From Apostichopus japonicus (lineage: Eukaryota; Echinodermata; Holothuroidea; Aspidochirotida; Stichopodidae): DNA of 64,000 nt. The notes under the pieces were generated by a model. That model was given only the letters and a program-made list of their open reading frames with translations. It did no database searches and was not told where the DNA came from. Below, one piece after another: positions 7,169 through 39,869 of the stretch (position 1 is its first letter; each line of letters begins with the position of its first letter). The translations under genes and the position numbers were made by a program. Location of the stretch: contig NC_092562.1 of assembly GCF_037975245.1 (NCBI RefSeq), forward strand, positions 30,640,054 to 30,704,053, written 5' to 3'.

Positions 7169-7342
<174 letters not shown>

Positions 7343-15729: not shown

Positions 15730-15731
<2 letters not shown>

Positions 15732-15803
<72 letters not shown>
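15732..15803. repeat. (TA)n microsatellite
   Basis: Uninterrupted TA tract in an intron of the BEN-like gene, followed by GAGAGAG. Confidence 0.95.
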
Positions 15804-15811
<8 letters not shown>

Positions 15812-17466
15812 ATTAAATAATACACTAATTGGTCCAACTCCCATCGCCATATCTTTACATCAGAAACCAGTGATAAATAAAAGAGGAGACATCCAGGTTG
15901 AGCTGACCTAGACCCATTAAAAATTCTAAGCCATCGCTACTATAACAATCCATGGGTTTGGAATGTCAGGCTACCTGCATGGGTTCTTTGTATTAGAAGA
16001 GTAGTAGTACTTGAATATCATTGAATCTATACAAACTGATCACAGAAATGATTTTTTTTACTAGAATAGACCCAAAATTGAGAAACAGACAAGATATGGA
16101 GAGTTTAAAAGTAAAAAAAATATAATTCCGAAATATACTGTCCATAATCCATACAGTGCACTTACTCCCCGCTGCCTACTGTGTGTATAGTATGACAGAC
16201 GAACCATGTGAACAGATACGAGAGTGTGATATAGATCCTAACCATCGTCACTATATATTATTTGATTGTAGAATGATTTTGATTGAGTTTCAATGCGAGT
16301 ATTAAATTACGTCTTACTAAAGACTAAGGTTAAACAATTTCAACTGATTTGCACGAGCTCTTCTAAGAAATGTTCATAATATAACCAATTTACGTGGCAA
16401 CCTCATTTCTGTGCGGGTTGTATATATAGTGAACCTACTGTACACGAAAGTATACATACATTAAACATATCTACATATTGCGAGTACCTTATGTTCGGTG
16501 TTACGCTAAATATATTTGACTGTTGCGCTGTCTGTCAGGGGCCAGGGAGTATTAATTGCGACAGCCTAACAGCGATCGTGGGAAGTTGAACTGATTTCGC
16601 CCAGCTAGCAATTTTGTCTTTTTGGCGTCGTCCATTTATTTGAGCTAAATATTGACAGGGTCAAACATGAAACATATTTTTTATCTACGTGTGCAGCGGA
16701 CTTCAATGACATTGATATTTGAAACAAATTGAAACGCATTTATACATTTTCTTTGTGGAAATTCAACCCCAGTTACTAACTGAAAACACAAGAATGCCAC
16801 ATAGGTCACTGTGGGGCCCCAAGGGATATGATGTTTAGCGATGTTTTCTCATGATCCGTTGCTGAGATATGGGAATATTTAAATTAATTGGTTATTTATT
16901 CAGCAGGAAAACTCACTAAATTGCCTGTTTTCTTTTATAATTGGAAGCCTTGTAGTTTTATTTTAGAAAATAATGTAGGTCAACTGTAGCAACACACGCT
17001 GTTGTTGGTATACTTATACACGGATGGTCACATCACTTTACTATAAAGACTGCCAAAAATAATTATAAACAATAATGAAAAACAAAGGTAATTTAATTAA
17101 TGAGTGTTCCTTTTGTTACATCATAGTCGATTGTGCTGCGATAATCTTTTCTTTTTTCAACTAATAAAATATTTCTCAACAATGGATAAAAAAATATTAT
17201 GATAGGAGTTGGACCAATGACTATATTTTATCATTCTCTATCACATATATTTTTGGAATTGGTTATTTCATGAGCTCTTTAACATCAGCTAATATGAAAC
17301 TGGATACAAATATATACTATCATTACTGAAAACCCCTATTAAATAGGAACTAACAATAATCATTCTTGCATTGTCTCCAGAAGATTTTCGGTAGCTAGAG
17401 TGAAATGACATCACAAATATTACCAAAAGCACCAGACTATTTTCAATGAAAATATTCAAAATCTGA
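15804..17466. other. Intronic stretch, nothing recognised
   Basis: AT-rich intron sequence of the BEN-like gene. I see no further exon with a convincing frame. Confidence 0.4.
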
Positions 17467-18662: not shown

Positions 18663-20274
18663 CTAGAGATTTTTTTTGAAAAGAAAAAGCAGGATTGTGA
18701 GCGGATTATATTACCAACATATCTTACATCCCTATACACACATTTACATTACAAGGACTACAATTAAGAGAATTATTGTCTTATATTGACAGTCTTGTCA
18801 TTCATTCAGTATTTCACGAAACCAAAGATACTTGTCACTTGATCGCGTGAAAGCGCTGCTGACAAACAGAGTGATCGACTCAAGGTACAACTCGTTACAG
18901 TTCTGCCTAACAAGGGAAACATTTTTAGAAAATGCTATTTAGGCTAGGCCCTATATTACTATAGTAAGGTGCTTAAAATATCAGGTTTGACTTGAAAATT
19001 TTAGCATATGTTAGAAAAGATCCATTGAATTATTACAAGCCAGTTCATGAGAAAAATGGGAAAACATTAAGTGATCAACCCAAGCCCACGGTACCCCACA
19101 TGTAGGCCTGGCTAGTAGTAGGCTAGTACTACTATAGGCTATAATTGGTCGTTTCGCCCCATTGTCGTTTCGCCCCAAAGTACCTACAAGTTCGACCCAA
19201 AATTTTAACAAAGGAAAACACATTTTGATGGTTTTCGCCAACCACAGTAATTGCATTGCCCCAAACAAATGAAAATTTACGTAGCCTAGGCTAGGTTAGG
19301 CCCCCCCCCCAAAAAAAAAATTCAGGTCCGAGCTATTTGGTAAAAAGGAACTTGGAGGCGGGGCGTTTTTATTCACAGTGATTTGTATTGGGGCGAGTTT
19401 GTCATTAATTTGTTGAGGCTTATAGGCCCTATGTAAGACTAAGACAATGTTCAATATCAGTGCAAGGACAGTTACTGTAAATACTGTAGACTATAGGCCT
19501 AGGGTTACTGTTAGTGTTAGATCTATATAGGCTAGGCCTTAGCCTAGCCTGGGCCTGAGAAGAAGTCATTGTTTTTGCGTAGGCTAGGCCTATTCAAACA
19601 TAGGCTAAGTTATAGTAGAACCTATAAGTACAGTAACTAGTCTGTAGGGTAAGCCTCGCCTACGTTGGACAAAGGAAGAGCCTAACTTAATAAACAAGGA
19701 AATAATTAGCACATAGGCCTAGTCTAGGACTTGGCCTTTCATTGCATCGCTGTCCGAGAAATCCCTAGGCCTAGACCCTAGGCCCGTACTGGCTACGCAG
19801 AGACAATTATATACTTGACTACCTAGCCTATACCGTAATAAACTAATATTAACAACAACATATAAACATCAAATTATGAAAGCCATAGTTATGAACATTA
19901 TCTGATCATTATACGTACTACCGATATGAATAATTGTAGCGGGCAGTAATTGGTGTTGTATCTCCCAGACACTTTGCTTCCCACGACGTTGTCGTCAGTA
20001 GTTCCCAAGACATCTTTCTGCGATAAGATTGAGATTCCTCGGCACTTTCCCCACTGCACGAGAACATGTGTCATTCTTAACTCGTCTTAATTGATGTACA
20101 TGTATTTAAAATAATGAAAACATAGGTTATTTAGGGCCAATTTTATCGAGCTAGAATAGTTACGCGTGATCCACAATACGGATGCTAAATTCGTAGTGAC
20201 CGTACGTACGTAGTGCGGTTGCCTAATTAACGGAATTGAAAACGGCGCCAAATTTTGAGATACCACTTTTTTAG
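18663..20274. other. Gene-free, rich in TAGGCCTA-like palindromes
   Basis: No exon recognised. From about 19080 to 19810 the sequence is dense in TAGGCCTA, AGGCTAGGCC and CCTAGCC, and near 19150-19190 it repeats GTCGTTTCGCCCCA twice. The 5' exons of the BEN-like gene may lie here, but I cannot place them. Confidence 0.45.
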
Positions 20275-20662
20275 CACTGAAAACTTAAATTGGTCTACCG
20301 ACTAACCTAACGTTAGTCCATTTGGTGCCTCTACCGACTAACATAGCTCTAGTCAGTTGCTACCGACTAATTTATTCCTTTGTCGGTTGGATTTCGTAGT
20401 CGGTCATCTTAGTCCGTCAGCTTAGTCGATCAACAATATCTTAGTCGGTAAATGTATAGTAGTCATTTACATTAGTTGGTGACATTAGTCGGTGTTTACC
20501 GACTAATTTATATAAGCCACCGACTAGTTTATAGCAGGTTTTACATTAGTCAGGATGGTGCCTCTCCCGACTAACCTTTCTTAGTCTGTATCGATTGACA
20601 AGTTGCACTGACTAGAGTCACTGAAAGAATTAAACCCGACTAGTTTCACTGACTAGAACCAC
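20275..20662. repeat. Left terminal and subterminal repeats of the CACTA-like element
   Basis: Begins CACTGAAAACTTAAATTGG. At least a dozen ACCGACTAA/TTAGTCGGT motifs in both orientations follow (first copies at 20297 and 20333), drifting to CACTGACTAG near 20620-20660. These would be candidate transposase or accessory-protein binding sites. Confidence 0.8.
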
Positions 20663-22047
20663 TGAGAGAAAAGATAGTAGAAAAAACACAAATAATGTGT
20701 ACGTTGGCAATGTTTATTTCTGATACAACTTTTGATTTCTACAAAAGCTGGCGATCATAGAGGTTGAAAACGATACAGTAGTAAGGCAGGCAAGGCAGCA
20801 TTAATCACTAACTTTAATTACTTTATTTGACTTAAGAAATACTTATGTTTGGCAAGGCTGTGTTTAGCATGTTTGTATGTATGTATATGACAATGAATAT
20901 AAGGAGAAAACAATATGTGTATTAACATTTGAAAGAATTGGTAGGAATACCTTGGTTTAAATATCTTCACTTCAATAAATAAAAAAATAATAAAATGAAT
21001 GACTTATAATGTATTTGGCTTAAGAAACACTTATGTTTGGCAAGGCAGCACCGACAGCATCAATGACTATGACAAAGAATGTAAGAAAGGACTTGCTTCG
21101 AATATCTTGGTTCAAATATCTACATAAGGAAAAAAAAGAATGTCTGTCTAACAAATATAAAAAAAAAAGTTAACATAATAAACAAGTTCTCAACAATGCT
21201 ACTAATAAATAGAAAAATGTGAGGGTGGAAAAAAATGTTTGTTTCAAAACTATTAGGAACTTTGATGCAAGGATTAAATTTTGGAAGCAAGCCCATAGCT
21301 GGCTACGTAATCACAACCTCGGAAACTGAAAATAGGAAACTGAAGTTGCCTATGTTTCCATAATATTATCACTTATCAACAAGGGTGTAACAAAAGAGTT
21401 TGGGGGGGGGGGGGATTTCCAGACAGAGTCCCAACAATTTAATGAAAGATGGCAAAAATAAGGGGCAGGACCATCCATTTTCCTTTTTACCATTATCCAT
21501 TCCCTTATCCATTTGCCGACATATGTCAAACTTGCCAACAAACACAGTTGGGGAGTATGGCACCCCCCCCCCTCCACCCTGGCTATGCTCCTGTTCATAA
21601 CTTGACTGACTGCCAACTGAACATAAACTGATGCAAACAAACTCTTATCCTAAACCTAATCGATTGAAAATTATGTTTTGAAGGATATATGGAATATTAA
21701 ATTGAGTATCTGACAGCTGATATGAAAAGGACCGTATCAGCTTCGTAAAGTAAAGTTAGGTATGTTAACATTACAATAGAGAATGACCAGTTCCACCAAC
21801 AATTTTCATTTTGTCAATTTTCTCAGACCTTTCTTGTGACATTTGCAAGGAATTTTTTTTATGGAATTGTGAACATGTTACCCAAGAAATTACTAACTTT
21901 TTTTCCACCACTGGCTAATGGCAACCAGAAATAGAACTACCCCTTTGATAGTAGAAAAAGCAAAACACTCTTATTGGAATCTTCACTTAAGATGTCACAT
22001 CAGGAAGGTTGTGCTAGGGTGTAAGGACATGCACAGGTATATTGAAG
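20663..22047. other. Element interior downstream of the spliced gene
   Basis: No exon seen. A 35-40 bp direct repeat containing CTTAAGAAAYACTTATGTTTGGCAAGG in two pieces occurs near 20828 and 21015. Around 21400-21580 there is a G-run/C-run bounded segment of the kind found in small insertions. Part of this may be 3' untranslated sequence. Confidence 0.45.
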
Positions 22048-22338
22048 TCACTTACATTGTTGGGAAAAGTTGGCCAGTTTATTTGTTAAAGAAATGATAG
22101 ATCTAGGTACTGGCACTCCATCATAAATATTAAGGATTACCCTCTGTATGAAACACAGACTTTTGGAGATGGAGGAAGGGTAAAAAAAGTTGAAAACATA
22201 AAAAGAGGAAATCCAGCATGCGATGGCCTTCATAACATTGTCAGTAGAGTTGATCACCATACCGTCTGCCATCAACTTAAAGGATGTGGTTATCCCAGGA
22301 GTGTCTCCATCCATCTTGATGTATACTGGATTACTAGT
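22048..22338 (-). CDS. Partner gene terminal exon
   Basis: Acceptor TTTGCAG; 96 codons and a stop. It reads TSNPVYIKMDGDTPGI, then CWISSFYVFNFFYPSS and VPVPRSIISLTNKLANF. Confidence 0.72.
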   Translation of the reverse strand, partial: TSNPVYIKMDGDTPGITTSFKLMADGMVINSTDNVMKAIACWISSFYVFNFFYPSSISKSLCFIQRVILNIYDGVPVPRSIISLTNKLANFSQQCK

Positions 22339-25300
22339 CTGCAAATTTAGAGCAAAACAATCACATGTAAGTAAACATGTTAAAGACTTGAAATTTGGGA
22401 GGAGAGAGACTGTTGAATATTTTATCTTTGAAAACATGCCAAATGGGTACATTTAAAAAAAACTTTATGTTGTCATCACTTAACAGATCAACTCAGTAGT
22501 AAAAGTAAACCAAGAGTACGGGGAGACTCTAAATTCCAACAAAGGGGGCCCAGCTATTGATATCATCAATTATTTTGCGTATTTATTCTATTTTAGAAGG
22601 GGGCTCAACCCCCTGAAAAACAAAGCCTCCTTTTATGCAGCACTGTTCAATTTGACATTTTGGTGTCATGTACAAGAATTGCTTTAATCAAAGGACTGAT
22701 GGCAAAAGGGTAACTTTAAAAGAAAAACAGGAAATTTTAGTTGATTCTGTCTGCATATGTACAGTACATTATGAATGGACATTTTGTGATTTTATTTTTT
22801 GTATTAATTTTATTTTCCACCATGATCTGATGAATGATTGCATTGGTGCCATAGTACCTAAATTCATTTAATAATTTTTGATTTTCAACATGTGTTATGT
22901 AACATGTAATCACTGTAAGTATTCTTTACAAGTGGATGCGTCCGTGTTCGGAGTAATTGGTAATTGAAATAATAGGCACTCTGATGGCAAAACCTAAGCT
23001 ATACCTAAACCATTGATAGATAAAATTATCTGGTAAAGTGCACTTGTAGGTACTACACATTTTAAATGCAGATATGTCTCTTAAAATGTTTGCTCATGAC
23101 TCATATATTTGAGCTGTTTGTCAACTACTGCAAAAAGAACTCTTAAAGAAGCTCCGAGACAGTATTGCTACTTATCAGGATAATCAGTTCCTTGCTTTTT
23201 CTTCTTCACAGTTTGATTCTTTAACGCTTTTCCCTCATCCAGTTTTAAAAGTCATATAATTTTACAAAAAGGTGAAGCTGTGCAAGTTTAATATACATCA
23301 AATTGGTTAACTAATAGTAACCAAAGAAATAAGGGGTGGTATTAAGAAGCACACACTTGCAAAAGAAACTGAAAAATTTCTTGCCTCTGAGCATGCTGGA
23401 ACCAGAATTAGAGAAATATCCTCTTGCAGGAGACCAGGGATTGCCAGGAAAGCAGCTTTGTTTGATGTGTCTGCAATAGTAAAAGAGAAAAGTGATTGGA
23501 AAAGAAAAGTGATTGTTGAAACCTGGCTTTAAAAAATCATATGTTAAATCTATCAATTATAACAGAATAACCAGTTATACCAACACCAAATATCATAACA
23601 ATGCCACAAACCTGATTATCACTTTGTTTTGGAAGAGATTTTGTAATTCATTTTGTAGAGCTGTGAACATTTAGTAGAGTTACTAAATGTTTACACTCAA
23701 GAAAAAATCAGAAATTCAGCGTGTTACACTGCGTTTAGTAACCAAGTATTCCATACAATCAGTCACTGGAACGATTACTAGGCCCATTGTCATCCAGGGG
23801 GCGCCGGGAGCTTTCCGAGAAGGCAGGAGGGGGGCAGCTGTTTCAAATGGGCACTTACTTTCTGAAACTGCAAATAACAAAAATGAAACTACCCAATTGT
23901 CTCTTCCTCTATTTACCCTTTTAATTCTACTGTGCTAATTACTTTGAGGCGTAGAACCCTTTGTTCTGTGGATCTCCTTTGTCTCTTCAGGAATCTCATT
24001 AACAAGCATTTGTGACCATAGGCGGAGGTATGCGCTCTACCGAGTGCCCATTGTCTTTATATATATTTATTTAGTGCAGTTACAAACGTTTCAGATGAAC
24101 ACTAATCTGCTACAGCTCTATTTTACCCTGAATATTTTCAGATACTGTTTTTTTTTTTTAATTCACTGTTAGACTTCAACTGTACAAGAGAACTATGAAA
24201 TGTTTTTCCTTTTTTTTTATATATATAACCAAGCCATCCAAATTTAATTAAGCATTGTTGATCTTGTTCCCTTAATGTTAATATATCATCACCGCAAACA
24301 TGGACATGGACATCAACACCAAAACAGGCCTTACAGACAGGTCACTGCAGCAAAGGGGAAAATGAACAGAGCAAAGTGTCATGTAACTGTTAAAGGAAGA
24401 ATTTATTGTTTATTTACAATACCTTTTATCTTCTGCTCTTCACGATATCCTTCCATTTCAGTGGTAGCCTCCATGAAAAAAGCATGTGGTGCTCTCTTTC
24501 CTTTGCAGGCCTTGATGAGTCCAGACGCATATCTTCCCAGGCCAGCACGGAGCGAATTAAAAAAAGTAACCTCTCCATCCTGTATGCGATTCATCTCTGT
24601 CAAAAGCTAAAAGAAAATGGTTGATTTTAAGATACAGCAACATACTAAAATTGCAACACTTCCTAAATGTTCCCCCCAATTGGTATTGATACATGAACAA
24701 AATATAGCTAACCCCTCTGGTACCCATTTCAGTTGAGTGGACTGAAGCAATGAATGTTGATGCAATGGTTGGAAATGATGGCCTTCTTGATTATAACATG
24801 TTGCTGTGCAGGAAATGTAAACACCCACTGGCACTCGAAAAATAACACAGATAACACCAATTTTTTCCATCTTTTGCGGAGTTGGTTGTTTTTTTAAGTA
24901 ACACTAACAAGAAATGGTTTACCCTACATTCCTGCAGTTTCCAATATTTGTCCCAATACTTGGCAAACAATCCCAACCATTTCCATTAATTTGCATATCA
25001 AATAATACACTCAATTTTAACAAAAGATATTTTTTGGAAATATTTTAAGTGAAGTACTGCATTATTTAGACAGGGCCAGAAATCTATTGGCAAGTTAGAA
25101 CCAACACACTTAACAGACAATTTTTTTTGTAAGAAAGCTATCTTTCCGCACGGTCTAAGACCCAGGCTCCCATTTAGATAGTGTGTAACAATGTTCCCAC
25201 ATAACACTTTTCACTCACTAGTTGGCTACTTATGCAAATGAATATAACACAGTGCATATGCATCAAAAAATGGATGTGTTAATTGGCATGATTAAGACCT

Positions 25301-28300
25301 CTTAATAAAAGGAATATTCCTATTTATTTTCATAAATTTAAATTTAAGACAGGGAACATTTAAAAAGAAACTGTGTCAATATCTTATTCTGTTTAAAATT
25401 TACAAACTTTTTAGGACTTTTCATTTAGGAAAACCACAAGGTAGATTGGCAACATCTGTGATGTCATGTTAGCACTTTCAGGAAATTTCTTTGAAACACA
25501 AATTGACATTTATCCTTACTAAACTAACTAAACAAGATATATTCACTTGGATGTCATCAAATAACCATGGGTACTTGCTCTTGATATCTGCGAGGGATGG
25601 AGTCTGGGGGGAAGAAATAATCCACGTCCTTCTGTCAGCCAACGTCAGTGCCATTGACTGACTTACTCCTCGAAAGTCTGGCTGCCTTTTACGTTTTTCA
25701 TCCTGAAGCCAACAAATGTGTCCATCAATGGATGCATCGTCTTCTGTTTCAGGGCGGTTCGGGAGATAGTTTTTCATACCCCATTGAGGTGGTGCTGCTG
25801 GTGATTCTGGTGCGGACTTTGGTTTCCTTGCTACTTTTAATTTCTTTTTTTGCACAGCCGCAATTTCAAATGCCACCCGCTTTCTGAAGTTCTGAAACTT
25901 ATATTGCAGCCTATGCTTCCACAGCATCTGGAAGAAAGAATTGTAAAAGGAATATTGTGAGGATTAGGATAGAAAAAAATAAAGGTTACACGGACAATGT
26001 ACAAACTAACAGTAAAATATCTCTTAGCTTACGCAATGTTGAACAGTAAAACTTATATAGATTCAAAAACTAAGAGGATTAAGAAATGTTTCAAGCAACC
26101 TAATCAACTCTGCAGTTTATGTTGTGAGTTAAGTTCAAACTTCACTGCAGTATATCATTCTGCTTCTGATAAGTTTTGTCCATGTTGACATTAATTTAAA
26201 GAGTAGTTATTTTTCTACTTCAATCCAAACAGTTTTGTTAAACACAATATTTCACACACTCAATACACATTACCCTCGGCCATGCAAAAAAAAATTGTTT
26301 CCTGTAAAATTCTTAGATTGAAAAATCTCATGAGTGAGAGAGGAAAATTTGTTTTCCCTTTTTTTTTTAACATGACAGCCAAAGAAAGTACAGTAAAACA
26401 AGAGCCCAAGGGCATTGTGGTTCCTTGCATAGGGGTCTATGACAATACACATAATATTATCAAGCAAGATTGGGCTCAAATAGTCTATATACTCAATAAG
26501 TAATTGTGGTCCTACATGTACCCATAAAGTAACCAACACTATAGCCAACACTTTTGTGATCACAAATTGTGATCAGATTTTTGATCGGAAAGCACTTTTG
26601 AGATCTGAATATGGCATCGAAAATCTAAGAAATATAGGGTCACCTACAAGCTGGTCAACAGATATGATAACATTGGTGACCTCAAATCACATGACTGTTA
26701 AGTTTGAAATTGTTCCACCACCCATTCACAACTTGTCCCAAAATATCAACCATGTCACACCTTGGCATTGGGAGTTTATTGCATTGTATTTCAAAAAATT
26801 AACTGTGAACTTGTATACATAACTTCACACACAAAGGTCACCCGGGGGTCAACCAATGGACATTTTTTATTGGTGACACGTGAATATACCATCAAAACTA
26901 TAAAAATTCAAACAATTTTTTCTTTGCCCAAATAGCAGTTTCTTAAAATGAATTGACCTTTGGTGACCTTGGATCACATGACCATCAATTTTGAAAATAT
27001 ACCCCTATACCATTTCCAACTTGTCCCAAAATATCAACCCTGACACACCTTGGCACTGGGAGTTATTGCATTAAATGTCTGAAAATTTACTTTGACCTTG
27101 TATAACTTCGCACACCAAGGTCACACAGGGTTCAACCAATTGACATTTATGATCACAAGGTACTTTTTATGATCACAAGGTACTTAAAGGTCACCAGCGG
27201 TCAAATTGAGGTCAAGGGTCACCCAGATGCGGGTTGACAATTGGATTACATTGAAGCAACTCCCAAACCCTAACAGACAATTCGTTCTCAAGTGATCGCA
27301 AAAATACTAGTTTTTTATCATTAATTGACCTTTGGTGACCTTGGATCACATGAATGTTAAGTTTCCAAATGTTCCTCTAACCAGTTCACAACTTGTCCCA
27401 AAATATCAACCTTGTCGCACATTGGCACTGGGCGTCATTGCAGTTTTAATATTTTTGTTTTTTGGACCATAACTGACCTTTGTGGGCACCAAAAACAATA
27501 GGGCACACCTTCTCCATATGACAGATCTATAGTCCAAGTTTGGCCTTACTCCAATTTTCCCTTATTGAGATAGAGCGTACCCAAGCAAGTGTCACAGATG
27601 CACACACACATACACACACCCAGACACACGCCAACCTGACTGCATAGGTTCCTTTTGCTAAAGCAAGGAACCAAAAATTGATATATGGATACTCAGGTAT
27701 AATACAGTATTTCCAGCCACAAAATAGTATGTATTGATAACAATGCCAAAATCTACATTTTTGAATGAATGCTTTCCAAATCATAGAAAAAAATATTCCT
27801 TCATTCTTAAATATTATATGTAAAATGTTTATAGAGATAAGGTTCAGAAGTAACAAAACTCTTTACTTTAATTACATTTAATCCAAATTAATTGCAACTT
27901 CAAGGACTAGTGAGAGTATAAATGATCTCATTCAGTATGCCTTATGTGCAAGCACTGTGACTGCCATATATCAATGATATGATATGAATGATATGCTTGT
28001 TGTATTTAAGACTAAGCTGCAAAACATTATTTCATTGGACAAAATTGTTGCTGGCCCTGACACAACTTGTCTTATGGTTGTCCAGATCAGTAACAAGATT
28101 TGTTGAACACTCCCTAAGGCTTTTAATATTGCTTTGTCAGAAAAATGGAAATATTACCTTCAGATTACCAACTGGCATATTGTCTTGTGGAGTCTTCATG
28201 GAAGGGTACTTCACAAACAATTTGGTGATAATTTCATCGTACTGTGCCTTGGACGGATAGCTATGAAAAAAATATAAACTGTAGTCATGCATCAAGTTCA

Positions 28301-30351
28301 CATACGGATAAATTGCATACTCCTACAAATGAAGGTTATATAATGTAGTTTCGTCCTTTAATAGCCAACAGCATATCAACAGCACACCTTGGAGGAAGAG
28401 TTAGAGATGGTGTATATTTGTTGCATGTTTGCTACACAGGGCTCTAGTGGGTAAATCAGGGGGCTGAGCCTTGAAGGTCCCTGTTTTCCGGAGTATAGTC
28501 TGACTTGCTTGACTCCACTGGCAGCACATCGGGATCATGCTGCATATATTTCTGAGTTTGGACAATTTCTGAGGATTAACCATTTAACAACAAGCACATC
28601 TGGGAGGCATATTTGCTACAGAGGGCATTAGAGGGTTAACACCAAACAATCGGACCTTTGGCATGTATTTGTATAAAACCAATTTGCTTTAATTAGCAGG
28701 AAATTTACCCATATTTTTTAACATGTGAAAAATATACATGTACTGTACTACTGTAGGAGATAAATGTGTGCAGAAATAGTCATGAATTTGAAGGGTACCA
28801 TAAAGGAACAAAAGGAATGCAGTGTACTTACTAGATACCATACTTTTCTGTAACCTCTTTATAAATGCTGTCCAAAAAGAGGCTCCTCTCTGCTACGTTC
28901 ATGGTGTATCCACCACTTTTGAGCTTAGATTCTATTGTTGGAGGTTGTACTGGGATCTGAAATTTAGTTATCCATCCAGAATGAAATGACACAGGTGAAG
29001 TAGGATGGGGAGACACAAGGGAAGAAGTTAAGGGTGCAGCAGGTAAGGATGGTGGGTCATCAGCACTGGAAGAAGTGGAAGGCTGTTCGATTGAGACTGG
29101 GGTTGAATATGCATTTGGTGTTGGTGGTGGAGATGGCGAGTTCGGCGTTAACAGCGAAAAGTCAGAATTGTCACGTAAGAAGTCACTGCCGGCTGTATAG
29201 TCAAGTTGAGATACTGTGGATCTGTGAAATGATAGAGCAGTAATACTGTAAGGTTGAGATGGCTAACAGCTAAAAAGTGTTACTTACCATACACATCTTT
29301 TCAACGATTGGACTTTTGACCAAACAGATGCTTCTATTTGGAAATGTGATAACTTTGTGTACATACAGACAATATCAACTACATACATCTTAATTACATT
29401 TTGCCCCATTTTTCATTGATATACAAATGTAATTGCATTGGGAGTCAATGTAGAAACAAGTAGTGTGTGGGAAGAGATTTTCTGTCATAGGAAGCTTCAT
29501 TGCATTATTTAGGATGTTAAAAGTGAGGTTAATGGAAATCTGAACATCTGCCATGTTTGAATCCTATATGGCATATAGATGTGCAATGTCTCATGGATCA
29601 TTTTCACGTTTGCCCATGCCCTCCACTCACACATCACACCCAGCCCAAAAAATTAAATCAGCTCAAAGTATGCAGTTGGTGGGCCATCTCCATATAAGAT
29701 ACAATGATGTTGAAAATTAAATAGTGCTTCACTGCCTTCATACAGTAGGCTGTTACACATCAAAAATAACTGAATGTGTAACCTTTGGAGCGGTCACTTC
29801 AAAAGGGATATGTCTCAACTGTACCTTTTCTACTGTAGATACATGTAAATTATGAGATGATATTAACAAATACAAATACATAATTAACAAAGTATGTAGA
29901 ATCTATTGTCGACAGTAAAAGCTAAATATTACAGAAAGAAAGTAAATTTATTGCACAAATATTGACAATAATTGAATAAGATGTTACCAAAAACAATCAT
30001 TGTTGTTTATTCTACATAAACACAAAAGGTATATCAAAATGAACTTACCCACTGTCACTAATTTCTGCATTTATACTGTCTTCTGCATTATTAATTGTAA
30101 CTGGAAAAGTGGCAGGTTGCTCTTGTCCTTTAACAACTCTCAGTTTGGCAGGCCCATAGAACAACTCACCATCTTCAATGTCAACATAGTCACTGAAATC
30201 TCTATCATAGAGTTGAAGAATCAATTCTGATCCACCCAAACCAAAAGTTTTCACTGCAGCAGCATGAAGTTCTGACTTTGATGCCCCTACGTCATTGGAT
30301 TCAATCTCAACTTTTTTGTTATTTGGTCCAAATATGAGTAGAAATTTGTGA
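22048..30351 (-). CDS. Spliced transposon-partner protein with ubiquitin-like N-terminal segment
   Basis: Seven exons are recognised: 30049-30351, 28832-29221, 28158-28260, 25547-25927, 24423-24606, about 23357-23470 and 22048-22338. The joins of exons 1-5 are phase-consistent. The order is: an HKFLLIFGPNNKKVEIES...LQLYDRDFSDYVDIEDGE beta-grasp-like segment (ubiquitin/PB1/CIDE-N-like by eye), a Ser/Thr/Pro-rich linker, a helical segment ending KYGIYYPSKAQYDEIITK, a basic LWKHRLQYKFQNFRKR segment, a D(R)R plus SLADIKSKYPWLF segment, and a C-terminal FYVFNFFYPSSISKS region ending in a stop at 22048. I recall similar multi-exon proteins in fish and invertebrates labelled SAMD3-like, but cannot confirm this. 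The first exon and start codon are not found. Being inside the CACTA-like ends, it may be the accessory factor of the element. Confidence 0.7.
23357..23470 (-). CDS. Partner gene exon (3' border uncertain)
   Basis: Acceptor ATTGCAG joins in phase. It reads TSNKAAFLAIPGLLQED. A donor at GTTTCT (after 23369) would keep phase with the last exon; the stronger-looking GTGTGT at 23356 would not, so an unseen exon is also possible. Confidence 0.5.
24423..24606 (-). CDS. Partner gene exon
   Basis: Acceptor TTTTAG and donor GTATTG. It reads LLTEMNRIQDGEVTFFNSL then GLIKACKGKRAPHAFF. Open throughout. Confidence 0.7.
25547..25927 (-). CDS. Partner gene exon: basic region
   Basis: Acceptor CTTCCAG; donor probably GTGAAT. 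It begins MLWKHRLQYKFQNFRKRV, has Lys/Pro-rich low complexity, then NYLPNRPETEDDASIDGH and ADRRTWIIS and KSKYPWLFDD. Confidence 0.78.
26560..27680. repeat. GACCTTTGGTGACC-type tandem repeat with (CA)n end
   Basis: Three long units contain GGTGACCTYRRATCACATGA and AACTTGTCCCAAAATATCAA at about 26673, 26961 and 27335. They are followed by a CACACA tract (27600-27635) and the near-palindrome GGTTCCTTTTGC...GCAAGGAACC (27649-27674). It lies in an intron of the partner gene. A similar unit/CA-tract arrangement occurs at 54.7-55.3 kb. Confidence 0.75.
28158..28260 (-). CDS. Partner gene exon
   Basis: Acceptor TTTCATAG and donor GTAATA. It reads YPSKAQYDEIITKLFVKYPS and ends VGNLK. Its first base completes a Tyr codon from the previous exon. 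Confidence 0.8.
28832..29221 (-). CDS. Partner gene exon: Pro/Ser-rich linker and helix
   Basis: Acceptor TTTCACAG and donor GTAAGT. A low-complexity SPSPPPTPNAYSTP-type linker is followed by ERSLFLDSIYKEVTEKYGI. The frame is open for 130 codons. Confidence 0.78.
30049..30351 (-). CDS. Partner gene exon: ubiquitin-like segment
   Basis: Acceptor ATTTTCAG and donor GTAAGT. It carries hydrophobic beta-strand-like stretches and LYDRDFSDYVDIEDGE, ends in an acidic Asn/Ser-rich linker, and leaves two bases for the next exon. Confidence 0.75.
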
Positions 30352-31577
30352 CTGAAAATTAAACAAGTCCAAAATAAAGTTATCATCTCTAAAAAAGCGA
30401 CAAAGTAGCAATTGTCTTTTTAACGCCACTTACACCAGTATCAAACATGTTTGAGCATAGTCTCAAAGTCACAAGTGCATTTCACATATTTTTCCATTCA
30501 AATGAAGTTGATGAAAAGGAAATTACTGTCTATACTACTGTATTTTACTTTTCAGTAGACACATAACGATTTTACTTATGTTATGCTTGCAATAAAATTG
30601 ATGTTACAGTACATTTGCTGTGTAAGAACAGTCAACACACTTGAACTTCAAAGTTAAACAAATGCCAATGATATGTACTGCACAAAAAAATACAAGGACC
30701 TCTTTTTACGTGGTAGTACTAACAACACGGCACTGAATGCGAAATCAAATACTAACTGACCAAGATTCGATCCAACCCGCTTGCAAAAGTATGTCTGTAT
30801 GTTCTGCACACTGTGCAATAAAATACAAGGACTACTACAGAACATCTGCATAGGCAGAGTTGGAAAAAGTTTAAACAATTCTTGCATTTCAAATTCACAA
30901 TCGCATAAAAATTACCAAAAAGATCATAAGGGCAAATTTTTATGGAACTAGCATTGATGTTCTCGAACAGAATACCTTCACAAAATTGACTAAACTTTTT
31001 AAGGAAATTGTCAGATTCTTTCTGTCATTCAATTGAAATATGGCATAAATCGGACAGCACCAAACAAATTGTAAAATTATTGCAGCGCAGAAATGTTGCA
31101 TTTATCATAACACACATGCTTCACACAAACGCATGTGTGCCCTTTTTTTTAAAAAGCTGAAGAGACTACCTTTTCAATTATATAATCTAAATATAATCTA
31201 AATAAAATATGCAAAACTTGTTAGCATGAACTTAGAACTGTCTGGTTATTGAAATTCGGGGCTGTATAATTGGATAAATCTTTTAGCTACCATCCATTTG
31301 TTGAATGATAATTAGATAGTAGGGATATGATGTTAGGTCTTGTTAACAATCAGGATGCTTACAACCAAAAATTGGATACTAGGTGTGGTAGAATCTTCCA
31401 TCTATACAGATTATATCACTAAGAACCTCAGCAATACAAAATTAGCAAAAACATTTTAATACTAAATGCGTAAACAAATTAAAACTGTAGTACTTCAGTT
31501 TAAGCAAAGTGCAATCATACACACTCAACTAATAGAGCTTTAGTTTGCAGTTTTGCTCAGGTCTATGTTTAGAAACA

Positions 31578-33983
31578 CTAAAGTACAAAATTATGCCTCA
31601 GTGTTATAAGCTCCATGTTTCTAGTCTGATATACCCCAAGTGGGTAAGAATCAAAAAGATCTGAACATTTCTTAAACACAAACTTGCAGCCAAAACATAC
31701 ATTAAAAGCATGAACATGAGAAATATACTGTACTCTTTCACTCATGCGGCACAATAAAAACACCTCATCAGTTATAAGGAAACACATGTCAATTTTTCCG
31801 AAACTCCCTTCTTCAACAGCAACGGCTAAGCCTTTGGAATAGAATGAACCATTGTAACAAACTTTACCAACAGAATACACAGATTCATTACCACCAACTA
31901 AAAGCAATACTTGCGCTTGTATTGTTTGTGGCAAAAGCCGGACAGGGTACAGATCACCCTTGGAGTGAGTTAGAGCATCTTCTGTGAGGAAGTTTTGGGA
32001 TCCATGATAGGTGGCTTGCATATACTCATGACGGGTAGCAAGAGTTTTGCACACATTTTTTCGATTCTTTGAAGTTCTAGCTATTTCTTTAAAGTAATTG
32101 TGCTTCCCTTCAAACCTCAATGTCCATGTGTTGATGAGTGGGCCATATTGCAACAGCATTTCAGGGTAATGAACCAAGTAGTGTGCTTTGGGTTTCATTG
32201 ATACATGTGGAAACGCTTCAAAATACATTGTCAAAAATTCCTCAATTAGATCAGCTAAAAATATTGTCAATGCCCTAGTCACTTTCTTTGACATGCAATA
32301 CTGTACGACATCTAACAATTTCAATAATACTTGCCATTCCTTACTATCTTGGGGAATGAAAGAACCGACCATTAAAGGTAACAAACGACAGAGACACAGA
32401 GCTTGACAGGCAGTTTGCTTAACTTTAAAAGTTTGAATCTTGTCAGACATCAAAGAAGGTTTATTAGTGCAATCAGAACCTTCATAAGGAAATTTTTTTA
32501 TCTGTTCATTAAGATCACTTAATGTAAAAAATTGTTGAGTAACACAATACTTGACAACCTCTGCAATGACTTCAGGGATTACCCCTTCAAATAGATCATG
32601 GGCAATGTCTGGTGGACTGCCTTCCACAACATGAAAAAACTGTAATTCATTGAGGCAAGAAGACTGCTTGATTCCATATAGTGTAAAGAGGGCAGGGTTG
32701 GTCTGTACTGCAACTGCTTGCAGTTCATATGCTTCTTTGGTTCTCATTTGCAAATTATCAGATCGAAAATGATTCTTCTGATCAGCTTTAATTACATTAC
32801 AAAATCTACATATCCTCCCATGATTGAAATGTGTTTGAAATCCACCTAAATCATGAGCGGCCAAGTTATCTGCCACTAAGAAAGAAACAGTTCCATGAAA
32901 AGTATATTCAATTCCATCTTTCAAAATTTGAATACCATTTTGCTCAAGAATCTTGAGATCGGAAATAAGTGGCTGGAGTATACTTTCATAACCATATTTT
33001 TTGACATAAATGGTAGGGCACAAAATCACTGACTGAATAGTTCTTAATTTAGAGCGATGCATGGGTGGTAAATTCCCCAGAACAAAGTACAGCACACAAA
33101 ATTTCAGTAAATGAACATGTGTCCCTAATGGATTTGCAACAGTGAAATCGTCACAGTACAGTTGAATTTGAAGGCTATTTGGCTGCTTTGAGAATAGCTC
33201 GTTATCATGAAACCTTACACCATCACAGAAGTCCCCCAGAATATCTCCATCTGGAGAGGAATGCCCATTAATTACTTCACTGAATACATCATCAAATTTC
33301 AACAAGGCCTTTAAAGTTTGAAGAATAGGAATATATTGCATAGTATGCACCTTGGCAGTTACATTATCTCTGCCTAATTCATATTCACAAGGTTTAACTA
33401 CACCAAACTCATTTGCTACATATTTCTGTAGGTTAAGGGCAGTTGAGAAATTATGTAGTGCATGTTCAAATTCACTCTCTTGTAAGACATTGTCTAAACC
33501 AGACTGCTTCAAGACATCAATATTAGTATTTGTTCTTTGTAACACATTATGCAAGTCCTCTGTCATCTTTTCCCTACACATTTTAAGAATGTCGACACAT
33601 TCATTTGCAACAAATGTACAAGCAGCTTGTGGTATCTTATGAATTTCTCTAAGCTTCAACAAAAACATTGAAACTTCCCTATTAACATCAATATCTACAG
33701 CGTCGTCTGCATTAGCATGATTTTCTTCGATTGGCAATTGGTCATCATTTTCAACACCATTATCATTTATCACATCAGCATTTGTTACTTCAAGCCAAAA
33801 TAGTTCATGTTTGAGGCGTATATGGCGACGATATGTTCTAACATTGGAATAATTCTTTGCACAACCATTAATTCCACATACAATTCTAAAATTTGGATTA
33901 TTTCCATGAACAAACCTATAATGTTTCATTAAAGTTTCAAACTTCACAGTGTTAAAAATACAGTAACAACAATTAAATCGCAT
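31578..33983 (-). CDS. CACTA-like transposase with two C2H2 fingers
   Basis: An uninterrupted intronless frame of 801 residues from ATG at 33983 to TAG. The frame is also open upstream through a TATTTAG acceptor-like site at about 34005, so an upstream exon is possible. Two C2H2 fingers lie at about residues 5-27 and 36-59 (CxxC..HxxxxH and C-x4-C..HxxxxH). An acidic linker follows, then a core with DDFTVANPLG (about 278), YFVLGNLPPMHRSKL (about 299), SFLVADNLAAHDLGGF (about 367), RICRFC (about 391), PPDIAHDLFEGV (about 457) and KPKAHYLVHYPEM...RFEGKHNYFKE (about 597-633). The order resembles CACTA Transposase_21 proteins (acidic residues, CxxC, H-D-LFE, late His/Phe-rich block). The assignment of the catalytic triad is inference. 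It could act in the nucleus on the element ends. No in-frame stop, so it may still be functional. Confidence 0.8.
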   Translation of the reverse strand: MRFNCCYCIFNTVKFETLMKHYRFVHGNNPNFRIVCGINGCAKNYSNVRTYRRHIRLKHELFWLEVTNADVINDNGVENDDQLPIEENHANADDAVDIDVNREVSMFLLKLREIHKIPQAACTFVANECVDILKMCREKMTEDLHNVLQRTNTNIDVLKQSGLDNVLQESEFEHALHNFSTALNLQKYVANEFGVVKPCEYELGRDNVTAKVHTMQYIPILQTLKALLKFDDVFSEVINGHSSPDGDILGDFCDGVRFHDNELFSKQPNSLQIQLYCDDFTVANPLGTHVHLLKFCVLYFVLGNLPPMHRSKLRTIQSVILCPTIYVKKYGYESILQPLISDLKILEQNGIQILKDGIEYTFHGTVSFLVADNLAAHDLGGFQTHFNHGRICRFCNVIKADQKNHFRSDNLQMRTKEAYELQAVAVQTNPALFTLYGIKQSSCLNELQFFHVVEGSPPDIAHDLFEGVIPEVIAEVVKYCVTQQFFTLSDLNEQIKKFPYEGSDCTNKPSLMSDKIQTFKVKQTACQALCLCRLLPLMVGSFIPQDSKEWQVLLKLLDVVQYCMSKKVTRALTIFLADLIEEFLTMYFEAFPHVSMKPKAHYLVHYPEMLLQYGPLINTWTLRFEGKHNYFKEIARTSKNRKNVCKTLATRHEYMQATYHGSQNFLTEDALTHSKGDLYPVRLLPQTIQAQVLLLVGGNESVYSVGKVCYNGSFYSKGLAVAVEEGSFGKIDMCFLITDEVFLLCRMSERVQYISHVHAFNVCFGCKFVFKKCSDLFDSYPLGVYQTRNMELITLRHNFVL

Positions 33984-34167
33984 TTCTGTAGCAAATAGTT
34001 TCACTAAATACAGGAAATTTGTGATTTAATGCACATGTGACTTTGAGAAAATGTATGTAATTTGTTCAAAACCTGATAATTTTGGAACCAATGCAGGCAT
34101 GAGTAACCCTGTTAAGAAATAAGTAAAAAACAAATTTAAATGCAATGGATGGGTAAATACCTGGCTG

Positions 34168-35922
34168 TATAGTCCACACTTGAATTAGCAACCATAGGGG
34201 TGCCACGTGTTAAGCTGCATAGGAAAAACCTCAAATTTTGCCCACTTTTGCTTTTAACTAAAAAAATTGTTGCATCACTGGTCATAATCATAAAGTTATT
34301 ACAAATAGTATGATAAATTCCTTTTAAACATATTCCCTGCCAAAACAGTTCAAAAATTTAAATCTTCATGAGCTAGCCTTGTGCGGGATCCCGGTAGTCA
34401 AGTGAATCCCGGTATCCCGATATTGACTATTCCCGATCACAGTACAATGTGTAACTACTACTGGTATTGGGAAGACAACCGGTTATTACATTCGTTTCGG
34501 TATCATTCACAGGAATCCAAGACATAATACAAATATCTAAGTGTTACTATTTGAATTAAAGAAAAGATTACACATATATTTCTGGTTTCTGTATTCTTAG
34601 TTTGAATAATATCTGATCAATTTACATACTGACCTAGACCTATATATTAACGAATCAACTGTTCACGTAGTAATTTGGACCTAAGCTATCAAACGTTACT
34701 TGCGCTCAGCATGTTACGTGACCTCAAAGTTATTCTGAAATTGTTGTTATTTATTCTGCCTTCAATTGATGATTGTCAAGGTTCCCATGAACAAAATCTC
34801 ACCTTTATGCATTTCACCTCATTTTGGTATAATAATTATAACGATTTAATAAATGTTGAGCCAAAACCGCACGTAATATTAAATCCATCTTCGCACGGGA
34901 CTGTATATTATTATAGCCTAGGGTACTGTACTGGTACTCACACACAGTGTAATGCAGTACTTGAGATTTGATGCTGTAATGAAACGGATTCGTTTATTAA
35001 TACGGAGGGTTCAACGATGTCAATAAAAGTTATCTTTTGCTATTTTTTCAATATTTCAGAACTTTTGTACAAAATATGGATATTGTACGTTTCGAAAGTA
35101 TATTTTCTAGAGTAAAAACAGCTGATTAACGATATAAATAAATCTGTACTATTCTTATGTATGTAGTTTAAAAATCCCGTATTTACGTAGCCCCTGTGTT
35201 ACATTCTTATTGTCTGAAGTTCCAAACACGTGGTGACTTGTTGACAGTTAAAAACTTTTCATTGTGAACTTTTGAACTTAAAGGGAAGGCGTTGAAAAGG
35301 CCCTAATATAGCCTGTTATTTTTTTTTATAACCGTGCGTGTAAGAGTATGTACATAACCTATAGGCTATGCATATTGAATGTATGACATCCCGGTTGTAG
35401 TTACGATACCAGGACTCATGTTGCAGCACTATCGGTTGTGTGAAATCAGACTACCGCACAGCGCTAGCATGAGCAAATACGAGGAAAATCTGAGACAGTT
35501 TTGGAAAACTCTCAAGGGACTTGAAAATGATGTTCCAAACATCTTGAGTAGCAAAATCAACTTAAATTCATTCCTCTGTATTTTATGATAGGCAAATCTG
35601 TTATTAAGGTTAAAGTAAGACTTATATAGTTGTTTCCCCTGCTTTTCAACCAAGAACATCAGGAACTTCATATTTAAGTCCCTTGGGAGTCTTCAAAAAG
35701 TGTCAGAAATTTTCCTCTTTTTTGCTTAAATCGATGAAAGTTTTTTAACATTATAATTTGAAAGGAATATGCTTAAAGGGAATTTATCTTGTTATTTTAA
35801 ATAGTTTCATGACCAGTGGTGGGATACTGTAGTTCTTAGGAAAAGGTGCAAAAATCAGCAAAATTTGAGGTTTTTCCTATGCAGCCCCTAAGGCTATGGT
35901 TTCATTTCAAGTGTGGCCTATA
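34168..35922. repeat. Inverted repeat pair inside the CACTA-like element
   Basis: Arms 34168-34285 and 35809-35922 are inverted copies. A 27-bp stretch is exact (34215-34241 against 35858-35884), flanked by matching CCACACTTGAA, ACCATAG and ACTGGTCAT blocks. It may be a nested element or part of the structure upstream of the transposase gene. Confidence 0.75.
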
Positions 35923-36654
35923 ATGTAGAGCCAAATAGTAAGAAGTCAAATTACAGTGAATATACTGTACACATCATTCACTGTTCCTGAACTAATTAGT
36001 TATTAAGAGTATAAATTCTTTCAAAATCATACAAAATTCTCTATGCAATCTACGTCTATGGACAGGTAAGGATTTAATATGCACCAGAAACAGCAGTAAA
36101 TTATGAACACTGTAGTCTTTAAATCACAAGTGAAGGATTTATAGTTTTTTAAGGTATGGTTGAACAAAGTTTTTAAGAATGTTTAATATATGCACAAGTC
36201 GTGATATACAATCAAGAAAGCCACTCAGAAAAGTTAATGTAATTCGTTTAATTTCTTTCCAAAATTTCACCCCTTGATATTTAATTGAATCCTTTTTATT
36301 GCTGAAATTTGATAGGGGTATGATGAACATTATAAATCTCTTGTTCATATTCAGTTTCTTCTTCTCATAAATCTTTGTGTGAGGTTTGAAAAACAATACA
36401 TGGTAACATAAGAAAATGTACGGTTGACTTGATGCCATGTCACACAATTAAAATAAAATTGGCATAATTTATTATAATGAGTCCTCAAAATGCAAAAGTG
36501 CTGTAAAATGGTAAATATTAACTGATTTTGATGATTTTTTGCTGTGTTCATGGGTTTATTGCATACCTTCTTTAAAATATTAAGCACCAGTCATTGCTAC
36601 CTGTTCATGGATTTTAAAATGTAATGATATTTCTTTTCATTTCTTGTATGCATA

Positions 36655-37341
36655 TAGGGCTCAGTACAGTTTGAAGGGGTCAGTTACTGTATCATTACAT
36701 TTACACTAACAGTCAATGGAGAAATTTTACTAGATTATTCAATTCTTTTGTGGTTTAAAAAAAGGACTGTAAATAATTTCTTTCTTTAAATGTTTTAGAT
36801 CAATGCCTAACACATCAAATTAGTAACAAACAAAAAATAATAACACATTTCCTTACCAAAATAAAACAGGTGTTTTGGACCAAAAATTTGGCAAAATGGT
36901 AGCCATTTTGAATGATTTTGACAACAACAAAGGCTTTAAACTTCGTTATAAAGTATCACTTTAAATTAGTTTTGATGTGAATGGAGAGCTGAAATTTAAC
37001 TAAAATAATAGCATATGAAGAATTCATGCTCTTTCTGTTAGTTATCTTAAATTAGAGTCAAATTATCGCAAAAATTTGAGAATTTCCCATTGGCTTCAAT
37101 GATAAATATCCTATCATTTTTTTAACAAAAAAAATCATTTCTTCATAACTAAAGCTTATTTCCAGCCGGTTTTTCGCAGGAATATTGTGTTTGGTGACCA
37201 TGTTCAACATACTTGAGTTTCAGAAATTTTTCTCCACCAAATAAAAAAATATTTCGAACAAACTGTAAAAAGCTAGTTTTTTTACCCCATTGACTGTAAT
37301 GATAAGCGACCCCTCCAACTGGAGAAAACGTGCTGAGCCCT
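36655..37341. mobile_element. Nested MITE-like element
   Basis: The left TAGGGCTCAG...GAAGGGGTC...ATCATTACA...AGTCAATGG and the right inverted AGGGCTCAGCACG...GGAGGGGTCGC...ATCATTAC...AGTCAATGG correspond over about 65 bp. Total about 690 bp, AT-rich inside, non-coding. The target duplication is unclear. Confidence 0.65.
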
Positions 37342-37854
37342 GAAGCCTATAGGCTACACTCAAAGTTTGAACCTAGGCTACATTCTTTTCTAAAACTGCC
37401 CAATTGCGAGTGTGGCCATTACCGTAAGCCTGTTGGAATTTATGCATCTTTACGATATTAGCCCTACTAGTACTGTTACTTGTTAGTGTTACTATAGCCT
37501 AATTAATATACGATATGCAGGAATTCTAGCCTAACGTGTGACCAAAGGCTAAAATTCATGGATGTTAGCTTAGTGTAGAGCCTAGTGTTATGTCTTATCG
37601 TGGACGAAACTATGAATAAAGACTTACAATTGGCGTGAACATAAGGATGAATCCAGTTGCGTGTCGAGGTCAGACATTTTCAGTTTCAACTTAAAATAAA
37701 GTACGACAGCCGGACGGAAATATTACAATGAACTTAACTACAAACTAGGATGTATTTTGAGTGGTTGGAATCGACAAGTTTCTGTTTAGGTGTCATGCAG
37801 CATGTAGACTATTCTTGCACTGTTGCAGGCGAAATGTTCACGTGGTTTCAAATA

Positions 37855-38108
37855 CCTTAGTTCGTCGCCACCGACTAAGCTACAATTATGGCGCGAATCG
37901 GGTGTCCGGATCGTTTTTAGTCCGTGGGTTAAAATAGCTTAGGCCGTCGCCGCCGACTAAGCTACGATTATTTTTTCCTTAGTCGATGTAAACCGACTAA
38001 GAAGCAGTGATGAAAAGAAGATTTTTGCTAGTCTGTGTGCATTGACTAACGTTAGAGACTAATTTAACGTTAGTCCGTTGCAATATTGACTAGTTTATTT
38101 TTTCAGTG
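37855..38108. repeat. Right terminal and subterminal repeats of the CACTA-like element
   Basis: Carries several ACCGACTAAG/CTTAGTCG motifs and GACTAACGTTAG/CTAATTTAACGTTAGTCC, and ends TTTTTTCAGTG at 38108. Motif type and mixed orientations match the left end. Confidence 0.8.
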
Positions 38109-38110
38109 AG

Positions 38111-39869
38111 GGGTATATAGCTCAAACTTAAAACAAATATAACACACGTATACACTGAAATGAACACGATCGACCAGTACAAAATTAAATAAATGAATAA
38201 CTAAATTTGCCTGCAATTGATTTAGAAGCAATATAAGCAAACTACGAAAAATTGTCTATAAGAATCTTACAATTTACCTGTCGGGGGATCATAACAATAA
38301 GTAGCGAATTGAAAGCTAATAATATTAAGCATGACCCAGTGTGATTAGGAACAAAAAAAAAAAAAAATCAGCGAGACGTAGAACATGTTTGTTCAATAAA
38401 AAATCAAAAATATATATATTATTAATACCTTTTGAATGAATTTCGTTAACTTATAAGATTCGTTAAATAATATTCCAAAATAGATGAGCTTTATATGCAT
38501 AATTCCAATAATTATCATTATAAATAGTCTGGTCACATTTTCTAAAGCATACGAGTTCGACGTACCCTACACGACTCTGAGTGAAATAAATTCTTCAATT
38601 CCACGAACCTGTTGGGTTATACACTTACCTACACGTGTGCCGTTGTCTAGCCTACACACTGTTCACTACACGTATTGTGTTAGGATGTCGTAGTATATTA
38701 CCGAAGAGCATGGGTAGGAAAGTTGCACTGCATCTGCAGAAAGACATCGTCGTGTATGTGCGGGCATTTATGTAAAGTATATTTGGCGGATTAGTATGTT
38801 AAGGAGCAGGATTGTAGCTCTGCAAGTAAGATAATTACGGGAATGTGGAGGACTAGGTATGACCTTGGGGTTTACAACTTAGTTATGCTGGTAGTAGTAC
38901 TAGGATTATAGTTAATGTGCCCTTGTACTGTACTTGGCTACATTTGAAAGTGCGGGTTTACGTATTCTGTGTTGCTCAGTACAGGTTATGTTCTAGTATT
39001 TGTTTATTCAGTGACTTCCATCTAAAGTGGTATACGATTTCAACAGTTGTAATAGTTAAACCCTTGTTAAAGAAGTGGGTGTCTGTGAGTGAAACATGTA
39101 GTCATATGTTTTGTTTAGGCATTCTGTGAGGTCGGAGGTATTTAGTATGCATTGTAATTACTTCGTTTGCTTTCGTATGGGAGTGCCGTACTTGGGATAC
39201 GTTTTCAGTTTTGCCTGGAGAGGTTTCGTGTTATATTTTGATTGTTATATTTACTTGTTATTTTATCTTTCATAATTAGTTGTGCTCATAAAAGTTACGT
39301 AGTTTTAGTTGGACAATAGCGACTATGATACTTTATAGTACTTAATGGGTTGAATTACTACCTTTATAGATGCTTTGATGCCTTCCTGGTAGCTCTCGGG
39401 TGTTTCAAGGTCGGGAACTGGCCAGGAAAGTCAGCAACACCGTCATACAAACGGGGCTCGTCTATTTGGGGTTTAATAGAGGGGCGTATTTAATTAAGAG
39501 GCGTATTTAATAAAGGGGAGTATTTCATTAAGGCTAAATTTTAAATTTAAATGTATAAGATTTTTTATTTGTTTATGGTTGCTCGGTTTTCACCGAACAA
39601 CTAATTAAGTATCCTGGCTTGTGTTTTTTAATAAATAAGGAGACAGCAAAAGCATACCGTAATTTTTTGAGTCCGTTTGAATCTTTCTCTTTGAGACTTG
39701 ACCTGGGTTACACTAAAATATTAACTTTAACAGCCTGGAACCGGCCAGAAAGGTACGACCGTAGCCAGGCAAACGCATTTCCAGATCGTTTTGTCAAGTT
39801 TCTTATAGGAGTCAGTTGATCGATGGTATAAAAGTCAGCAGATTGTTCCAATAGAACTAGGATTGCGGC
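38111..39869. other. No gene recognised
   Basis: Only short motif-free open frames, for example 38484-38693 and 38917-39129. The sequence at 39470-39530 repeats AGGGGYGTATTTAATTAAG-like blocks three times. Confidence 0.45.

Follow-up and report, generated by a model that had tools for sequence, protein, structure and literature searches.

A probably autonomous, recently mobile CACTA/EnSpm-lineage transposon in Apostichopus japonicus whose transposase appears to lie inside a second gene

What kind of element occupies 17,834 bp (20275..38108) of a stretch of DNA from the sea cucumber Apostichopus japonicus, and how are its two genes related to each other? The stretch, which we call the window, is 64 kb long (C2:30640054-30704053, where C2 is the contig with the window). 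Coordinates without a contig name are those of the window, and the genome searched comprises 671.6 Mb in 35 contigs. A first-pass annotation, made from the letters alone, had proposed an animal transposon of the CACTA/EnSpm type that carries a transposase and a spliced accessory gene. Copies, target duplications, empty sites, an intact transposase and the accessory gene uphold the assignment to an animal element of this clade. That is, the segment is an insertion with a 2-bp duplication, it has near-identical full-length copies, and it encodes a DDE-type transposase together with a conserved second protein. Taken as a whole, the results are likely to be best explained by a cut-and-paste transposon of the CACTA/EnSpm lineage, apparently autonomous and mobile until recently, with a nested two-protein plan.

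Ends, copies and empty sites

The inverted ends, the AG on both flanks and the arrays at both ends were all located where the first-pass annotation had put them. These features are as follows.

20273..20274, no strand: left copy of the target-site duplication, AG, read directly; a single AG stands at three of four paralogous empty sites
20275..20295, plus strand: left terminal inverted repeat CACTGAAAACTTAAATTGGTC, at the 3' end of the genes; agrees with the right end at 9/9, then 17/21 positions; identical in all four full-length copies found
20298..20660, no strand: left subterminal array, 19 GACTA/TAGTC units in both orientations, mostly ACCGACTA
37871..38095, no strand: right subterminal array of GACTA/TAGTC units
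38088..38108, minus strand: right terminal inverted repeat, at the 5' end of the genes; the same end in the copies on C15 and C9, altered in the second C2 copy (CACTA for CAGTG)
38109..38110, no strand: right copy of the target-site duplication, AG, read directly

The termini CACTGAAAA and TTTTCAGTG are of the CA..TG type and start with CACT, with the agreement listed above. The element ends in CACTG, and the literal plant CACTA terminus is absent from it. GACTA and TAGTC together occur 19 times in the left-end 400 bp and 11 times in the right-end 400 bp, while none of 1,236 overlapping 400-bp intervals of the same 64 kb, used as the control, had more than 4, and their average was 0.5.

We searched the genome with 326 bp of the left end (40 of 324 candidates scored) and 329 bp of the right end (40 of 318), and the resulting copy counts are lower bounds. 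At least seven pairs of ends within 30 kb were obtained, of which four were long (17,853, 17,834, 17,816 and 17,184 bp) and three were short (4,574, 3,592 and 4,630 bp). The short pairs are probably non-autonomous derivatives, because they span only 3.6-4.6 kb. Thus the expected further copies with the same ends do exist: three besides the window element share its end bases, one of them with an altered right end. The target duplications of the full-length copies are AG (window), CA and TT, and that of the second C2 copy is TA, provided that CACTA is taken as its altered right end instead of CAGTG. The four full-length copies are 97.1-99.9% identical, with substitutions below 1% (aligned blocks in sampled regions), and the transposase frame is open in the window copy and the second C2 copy. 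When the related families F2 and F3, described below, are included, a 2-bp target duplication was present in 7/8 elements examined, one of the seven by the altered-end reading; an F3 copy on C22 with an altered 5' end was left unscored. The majority of the scored ends belong to a group whose identity with the window element is 94-95% at the left and 90-91% at the right.

To look for empty sites, we joined both window flanks (20025-20274 and 38111-38360) with a single AG. The joined flanks were continuous over 498-500 of 500 bases at four other places, and the remaining two of the six matches were the window's own flanks. The uninterrupted sites are C2:31141581 (99%), C2:30996464 (96%), C2:30835684 (96%) and C12:33285921 (86%). 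The junction reads TTTTTTAGGGGTAT at the three C2 sites and TTTTTTGGGGGTAT at the C12 site, as compared with TTTTTTAG-element-AGGGGTAT in the window; that is, a single AG is present at three of these four paralogous loci. The comparison of these sites with the window junction shows insertion with a 2-bp duplication, and the copies, target duplications and empty sites together show past mobility. The window element may well be mobile at present. The host site thus belongs to a sequence that recurs at these four places on C2 and C12 (86-99%), and one of them lies about 0.5 kb from the second C2 element.

The transposase and the second gene

Both genes lie on the minus strand, and their parts are listed below.

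31578..33983, minus strand: transposase open reading frame (ORF), 801 aa, with stop; N-terminal C2H2-like fingers and DDE core; P0002 is 100% identical
32796..33203, minus strand: transposase residues 261-396, resembling PF02992 Transposase_21 under the cut-off
34161..34195, minus strand: accessory exon 1 with start codon, upstream of the transposase, from public protein P0051
30352..34160, minus strand: accessory intron 1, 3,809 nt, with the whole transposase frame inside, from the public protein model
30049..30351, minus strand: accessory exon 2, conserved N-terminal domain, phase-2 acceptor
28832..29221, minus strand: accessory exon 3
28158..28260, minus strand: accessory exon 4
25547..25927, minus strand: accessory exon 5, best-conserved core
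24423..24606, minus strand: accessory exon 6
23385..23470, minus strand: accessory exon 7, followed by a GC-AG intron
22048..22338, minus strand: accessory exon 8 with stop codon, P0051 residues 495-590

The intact transposase-like frame of 801 residues is thus present as annotated. Of the two profiles suggested for it, Transposase_21 stayed under its cut-off, with the score given below, and DUF4218 was not listed for the window transposase at E <= 1. Among 35 relatives searched at E <= 0.01, Transposase_21 was found in 10 (best 4.1e-6), DUF4218 in 4 and Plavaka in 1. These 35 were taken, chiefly by coverage, from 49 transposase relatives, and the 14 omitted were mostly partial, one being fused. 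In their alignment D278, D372, C395, H601, H605 and E625 are invariant, and C392 is found in at least 90%. Judging from their position, residues of the D278/D372/E625 type are probably catalytic. In the part of PMC12730594 considered here, what defines the CMCT clade is a DDE core in which C(2)C and H(3-4)H stand between the second D and E, and the window transposase carries this signature (DDE, C(2)C and H(3)H).

In the search against solved structures, the best 60 of 123 matches of the transposase profile all fell within query positions 2-111 and were nearly all named zinc-finger proteins, so that the N-terminus resembles C2H2 fingers; the single sequence gave two weak and unrelated matches. 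The named relatives of the transposase belong to two sea cucumbers, a brittle star, a sea star, an annelid, a thrips and a sturgeon, and most other matches are nameless. A genome search with the transposase (56 of 451 candidates scored) gave 74 rows. By identity these include at least about 10 further groups, one group of 17 rows being near-equal in score (38-39%), and stops occur inside 4 of the 74 rows. It seems, therefore, that this clade is represented in the genome by many young lineages.

The accessory gene was spliced by eye into seven exons before the homologue searches, the protein family having been recognised. The product of these exons equals a public A. japonicus protein, 100% over 578 residues, and the spliced gene on the same strand is therefore real as a gene model. 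The public protein, P0051, has 590 aa and is annotated 'sterile alpha motif domain-containing protein 3-like isoform X3'; its 12 extra N-terminal residues are encoded at 34161-34195. Spliced alignment of P0051 gave eight exons and seven introns, six of them GT-AG and one GC-AG. The GC donor is that of intron 7 (window 23385), where the F2 counterpart has GT. Intron 4 holds a degenerate direct-repeat array (26636-27482) with spacings of about 287 and 372 bp and units 71-91% alike. The computed mass of the protein is 65.6 kDa, and residues 271-330 are strongly basic (pI 11.3). We had the impression, and only that, of a ubiquitin-like N-terminal domain. Protein searches for the accessory family, one of which scored just the 8000 candidates with most words in common, gave the same four entries each time, all of them from echinoderms: one from the sea star Patiria miniata and three models from A. 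japonicus, of which two are near-identical.

How do the two genes lie to each other? Both genes of the first-pass annotation are there, but on the public model they do not stand in a simple side-by-side order, as exon 1 lies beyond the transposase. By the public gene models, the whole transposase ORF is inside accessory intron 1 in the window family and likewise in F2, where this intron is 6,205 nt long. The seven intron phases, 2,2,2,0,0,1,0, are identical in the two families. Exon 2 of F3 and of a further family, F5, also starts, as read by eye, at a phase-2 acceptor, and in F5 this acceptor is 109 nt from the transposase stop. Thus, on the gene models, the transposase appears to be nested in accessory intron 1.

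Related families and competing explanations

F2 has one copy on C10 and one on C17, and its transposase shares 61% identity with that of the window. The copies are 20,118 and 19,161 bp long and 98.5-98.6% identical mutually (two long aligned blocks), and their ends CACTGAAAA...TTTTCAGTG (19/21) stand precisely where the copies cease to be alike. The target duplications are CA and TG, the subterminal arrays have 22 and 14 units in the end 400 bp, and both genes are present; the accessory protein, P0052, aligns at 48% with that of the window. F3 likewise has two copies, on C22 and C12, of about 13.5 kb as bounded by the loss of likeness on each side, with a transposase at 45%. Its ends are similar to those of the window element and its gene order is the same. 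The C12 copy has ends CACTGTAAACATTAGTTAGTCA (21/22 match) and a TG duplication, and the subterminal unit is, by eye, the variant TGACTAA/TTAGTCA.

In 20/20 transposase loci examined, two of which are the F2 copies, a related accessory N-terminal exon follows the transposase and is on its strand. Loci within one family are not independent, and the 20 loci therefore amount to about four families. The weakest match was that of F5 (E ~4e-4 to 3e-3), where a C-terminal exon match is also present; in the control, with 60 shuffles made from three loci, a single match reached E <= 0.05, the best being 0.036. Besides the window family and F2, accessory-related exons follow the transposase in four further lineages, namely F3/F4, C8:38642394, C2:8085253 and, weakly, F5. 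The two are adjacent in a second species as well: in Holothuria leucospilota, the accessory N-terminal domain forms the end of the transposase model P0004 (39% over 83 aa, E 3e-13). In A. japonicus, the model P0009 likewise continues from transposase into accessory. In the genome search with the accessory protein (74 of 721 candidates scored, 73 matches), the core exon occurred at at least 16 places, and at 12 of these 16 a transposase lies on the same strand no more than about 10 kb upstream.

These results suggest the following mode of action. A single transcript would begin near the right end, at a promoter located there, and would be spliced in two ways: with the transposase skipped it would yield the accessory protein, and with the transposase retained, the transposase. 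The accessory protein would bind the subterminal GACTA/TAGTC units, join the two ends and perhaps control the element, the transposase would cut at CACTG/CAGTG, and excision would need both proteins. The same division of labour is reported for TNPA and TNPD of maize En/Spm in the part of PMC2613891 considered here.

Several findings weigh against this explanation, some in general and some in favour of a particular alternative. The right end of the second C2 copy is altered, and the transposases of the C9 and C15 copies, two of the four in the window family, are frameshifted. The Transposase_21 score is 17.9-18.1 bits against the Pfam cut-off of 28.6. The accessory protein as a whole is near neutral (computed pI 7.05), no Pfam family was found for P0051 at E <= 1, and the search against solved structures brought no convincing relative: the protein had no match at E <= 1, and the two of its profile had E 0.62 and 0.95. 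The function of this protein is predicted only, and its public name hints at a host gene. One might therefore regard the CACTA transposon as real and the second gene as a captured host gene or passenger with no role in transposition. The separation of the genes from such ends, which the first-pass annotation had named as evidence against its proposal, was indeed seen in part, for 4/16 core-exon places lack a clear transposase upstream. At C22:5703452 (C22:5694900-5707825) there are a 92% match to the right end minus its last 19 bases and accessory exons, with no transposase between the end and exon 2. C16:30229979 has a transposase-like scrap only. At C16:10609278 (7.2 kb) and C17:23352907 (6.3 kb, 3.1 kb before exon 2) no transposase was found at E <= 1e-4, in spans too small to exclude one. 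Yet the same gene, with the same exon phases and in the same position, accompanies transposases only 61% identical, and related exons follow the transposase in the four further lineages. An accessory gene kept across such divergence is hard to explain as a passenger, and we consider this alternative improbable.

It is somewhat less improbable, while still unlikely, that the transposase and the accessory gene are two independent genes with separate promoters in one element, the upstream exon 1 being an artefact of gene prediction. Exon 1 is placed by public gene models in both the window family and F2, and the peptides that it encodes in the two are dissimilar. Moreover, in the C2:8085253 family the first ~400 accessory residues lie in a single open frame with its own ATG, meaning that nesting is not universal. 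On the other side, the models of two families agree in having exon 1 on the upstream side of the transposase, with its phase-2 donor fitting the phase-2 acceptor, and the acceptors of F3 and F5 and the short gap in F5, given above, agree with this. As for the view that the ends are due to chance or to an older nested element and that both genes are ordinary host genes, the terminal repeat by itself is short (9/9, 17/21), but the copies share their end bases, and empty sites and duplications exist. We reject the host-gene and chance-end explanations on the copies and empty sites, and give this view practically no weight. A mobile element with a nested two-protein plan is thus the explanation that we prefer.

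Some other observations were made. At C2:8082656-8086368, in the divergent C2:8085253 family, a 425-aa accessory frame with its own ATG lies less than 200 bp after a transposase match, and no accessory C-terminal part was found there. Sixteen places match the accessory C-terminal exon alone (about residues 494-586, 33-37%), for example C12:22651066, C16:36167137 and C9:15805145; 14 of the 16 contain one TGA, and none is within 10 kb of transposases among the matches listed. Near the right end of the window element, an inverted repeat of 31 nt (74%, arms 527 bp apart) at 36709-37297 resembles a small inserted element, possibly a miniature inverted-repeat transposable element (MITE). The long open frames at 7067-7549 and 15324-15812 are partly readings of TA microsatellites.

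Comparison with plant and animal elements

The part of PMC2613891 considered here gives sizes of 8.3 kb for En/Spm, 17 kb for Tam1 and 20.5 kb for Tgmt*, and describes CACTA inverted repeats with subterminal arrays. In En/Spm the Intron-1 region contains the tnpD frame, the subterminal repeats are bound by TNPA, and neither protein is dispensable; the plant accessory proteins are reported there as mutually dissimilar. As far as that text goes, the window element resembles En/Spm of maize in having, by gene models here, the transposase ORF in intron 1 of a multi-exon second gene, and in the size of the second protein (67 kd in En/Spm, and 590 aa or 65.6 kDa as computed here). It shares terminal inverted repeats and subterminal arrays with En/Spm, Tam1 of Antirrhinum and Tgmt* of soybean. 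In contrast to plant CACTA elements, it has CACTG instead of CACTA ends and a 2-bp instead of a 3-bp duplication, and its transposase carries N-terminal C2H2-like fingers with a sub-threshold likeness to Transposase_21.

Among animals, the nearest precedent is SmTRC1 of Schistosoma, which PMC1636069, in the part considered, describes as CACTA-like, with 2-bp duplications in 7/14 copies and transcripts that skip the transposase. The same text gives 4.5-9.2 kb and CCC termini for TRC elements of Schistosoma, Aedes and Tribolium, with short second products (681-bp ORF, 299 aa) reported as not detectably conserved. The window element is like these in its animal CACTA-like transposase and 2-bp duplication, and alternative transcripts, known in SmTRC1, are probable here; it is unlike them in its CACTG ends with arrays, its size range of ~13-20 kb and its conserved second protein of 555-590 aa. 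It resembles the CMCT clade, as far as PMC12730594 was considered, in the DDE core with C(2)C and H(3-4)H, the CA..TG termini and a duplication within that clade's range of 2-5 bp, whereas the fungal families described there carry TET/JBP genes and not the accessory protein. EnSpm-N6_DR (Repbase; PMC3485254, in part) shares the label of an animal EnSpm element, but is a 346-bp non-autonomous one. PMC5405107, in the part considered, is unrelated to the element.

The first-pass annotation had called a two-gene animal version of this size with an intact frame notable. It is less unprecedented than was supposed, since SmTRC1, an animal CACTA-like element that has alternative products, was described earlier. 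That is, 2-bp duplications and alternative splicing in animal CACTA elements are already published (PMC1636069, in the part considered). Beyond that text, the window element and its relatives add CACTG ends together with arrays, a larger size, a conserved second protein of 555-590 aa that is identical with 'SAMD3-like' models, and nesting that is seen repeatedly. A literature search of the titles and abstract openings listed, with Repbase outside its scope, yielded no account of the accessory protein in a CACTA element; this is weak evidence, and we claim no priority.

On the gene models, then, the window element is the maize En/Spm plan in an animal. We tentatively speculate, with rather less than even confidence, that the nested plan, rather than being peculiar to plants, is a device by which CACTA elements are controlled and which is ancient or arose repeatedly, and that many animal 'SAMD3-like' genes may be accessory proteins of such elements, some of them possibly adopted by the host. 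The finding assigns a concrete origin to proteins that annotation pipelines named after a host gene. It also offers an animal counterpart of maize Spm whose genes are intact, whose copies are near-identical and whose empty sites are clean, so that the sharing of a two-protein, splice-controlled CACTA transposition between plants and animals becomes directly testable.

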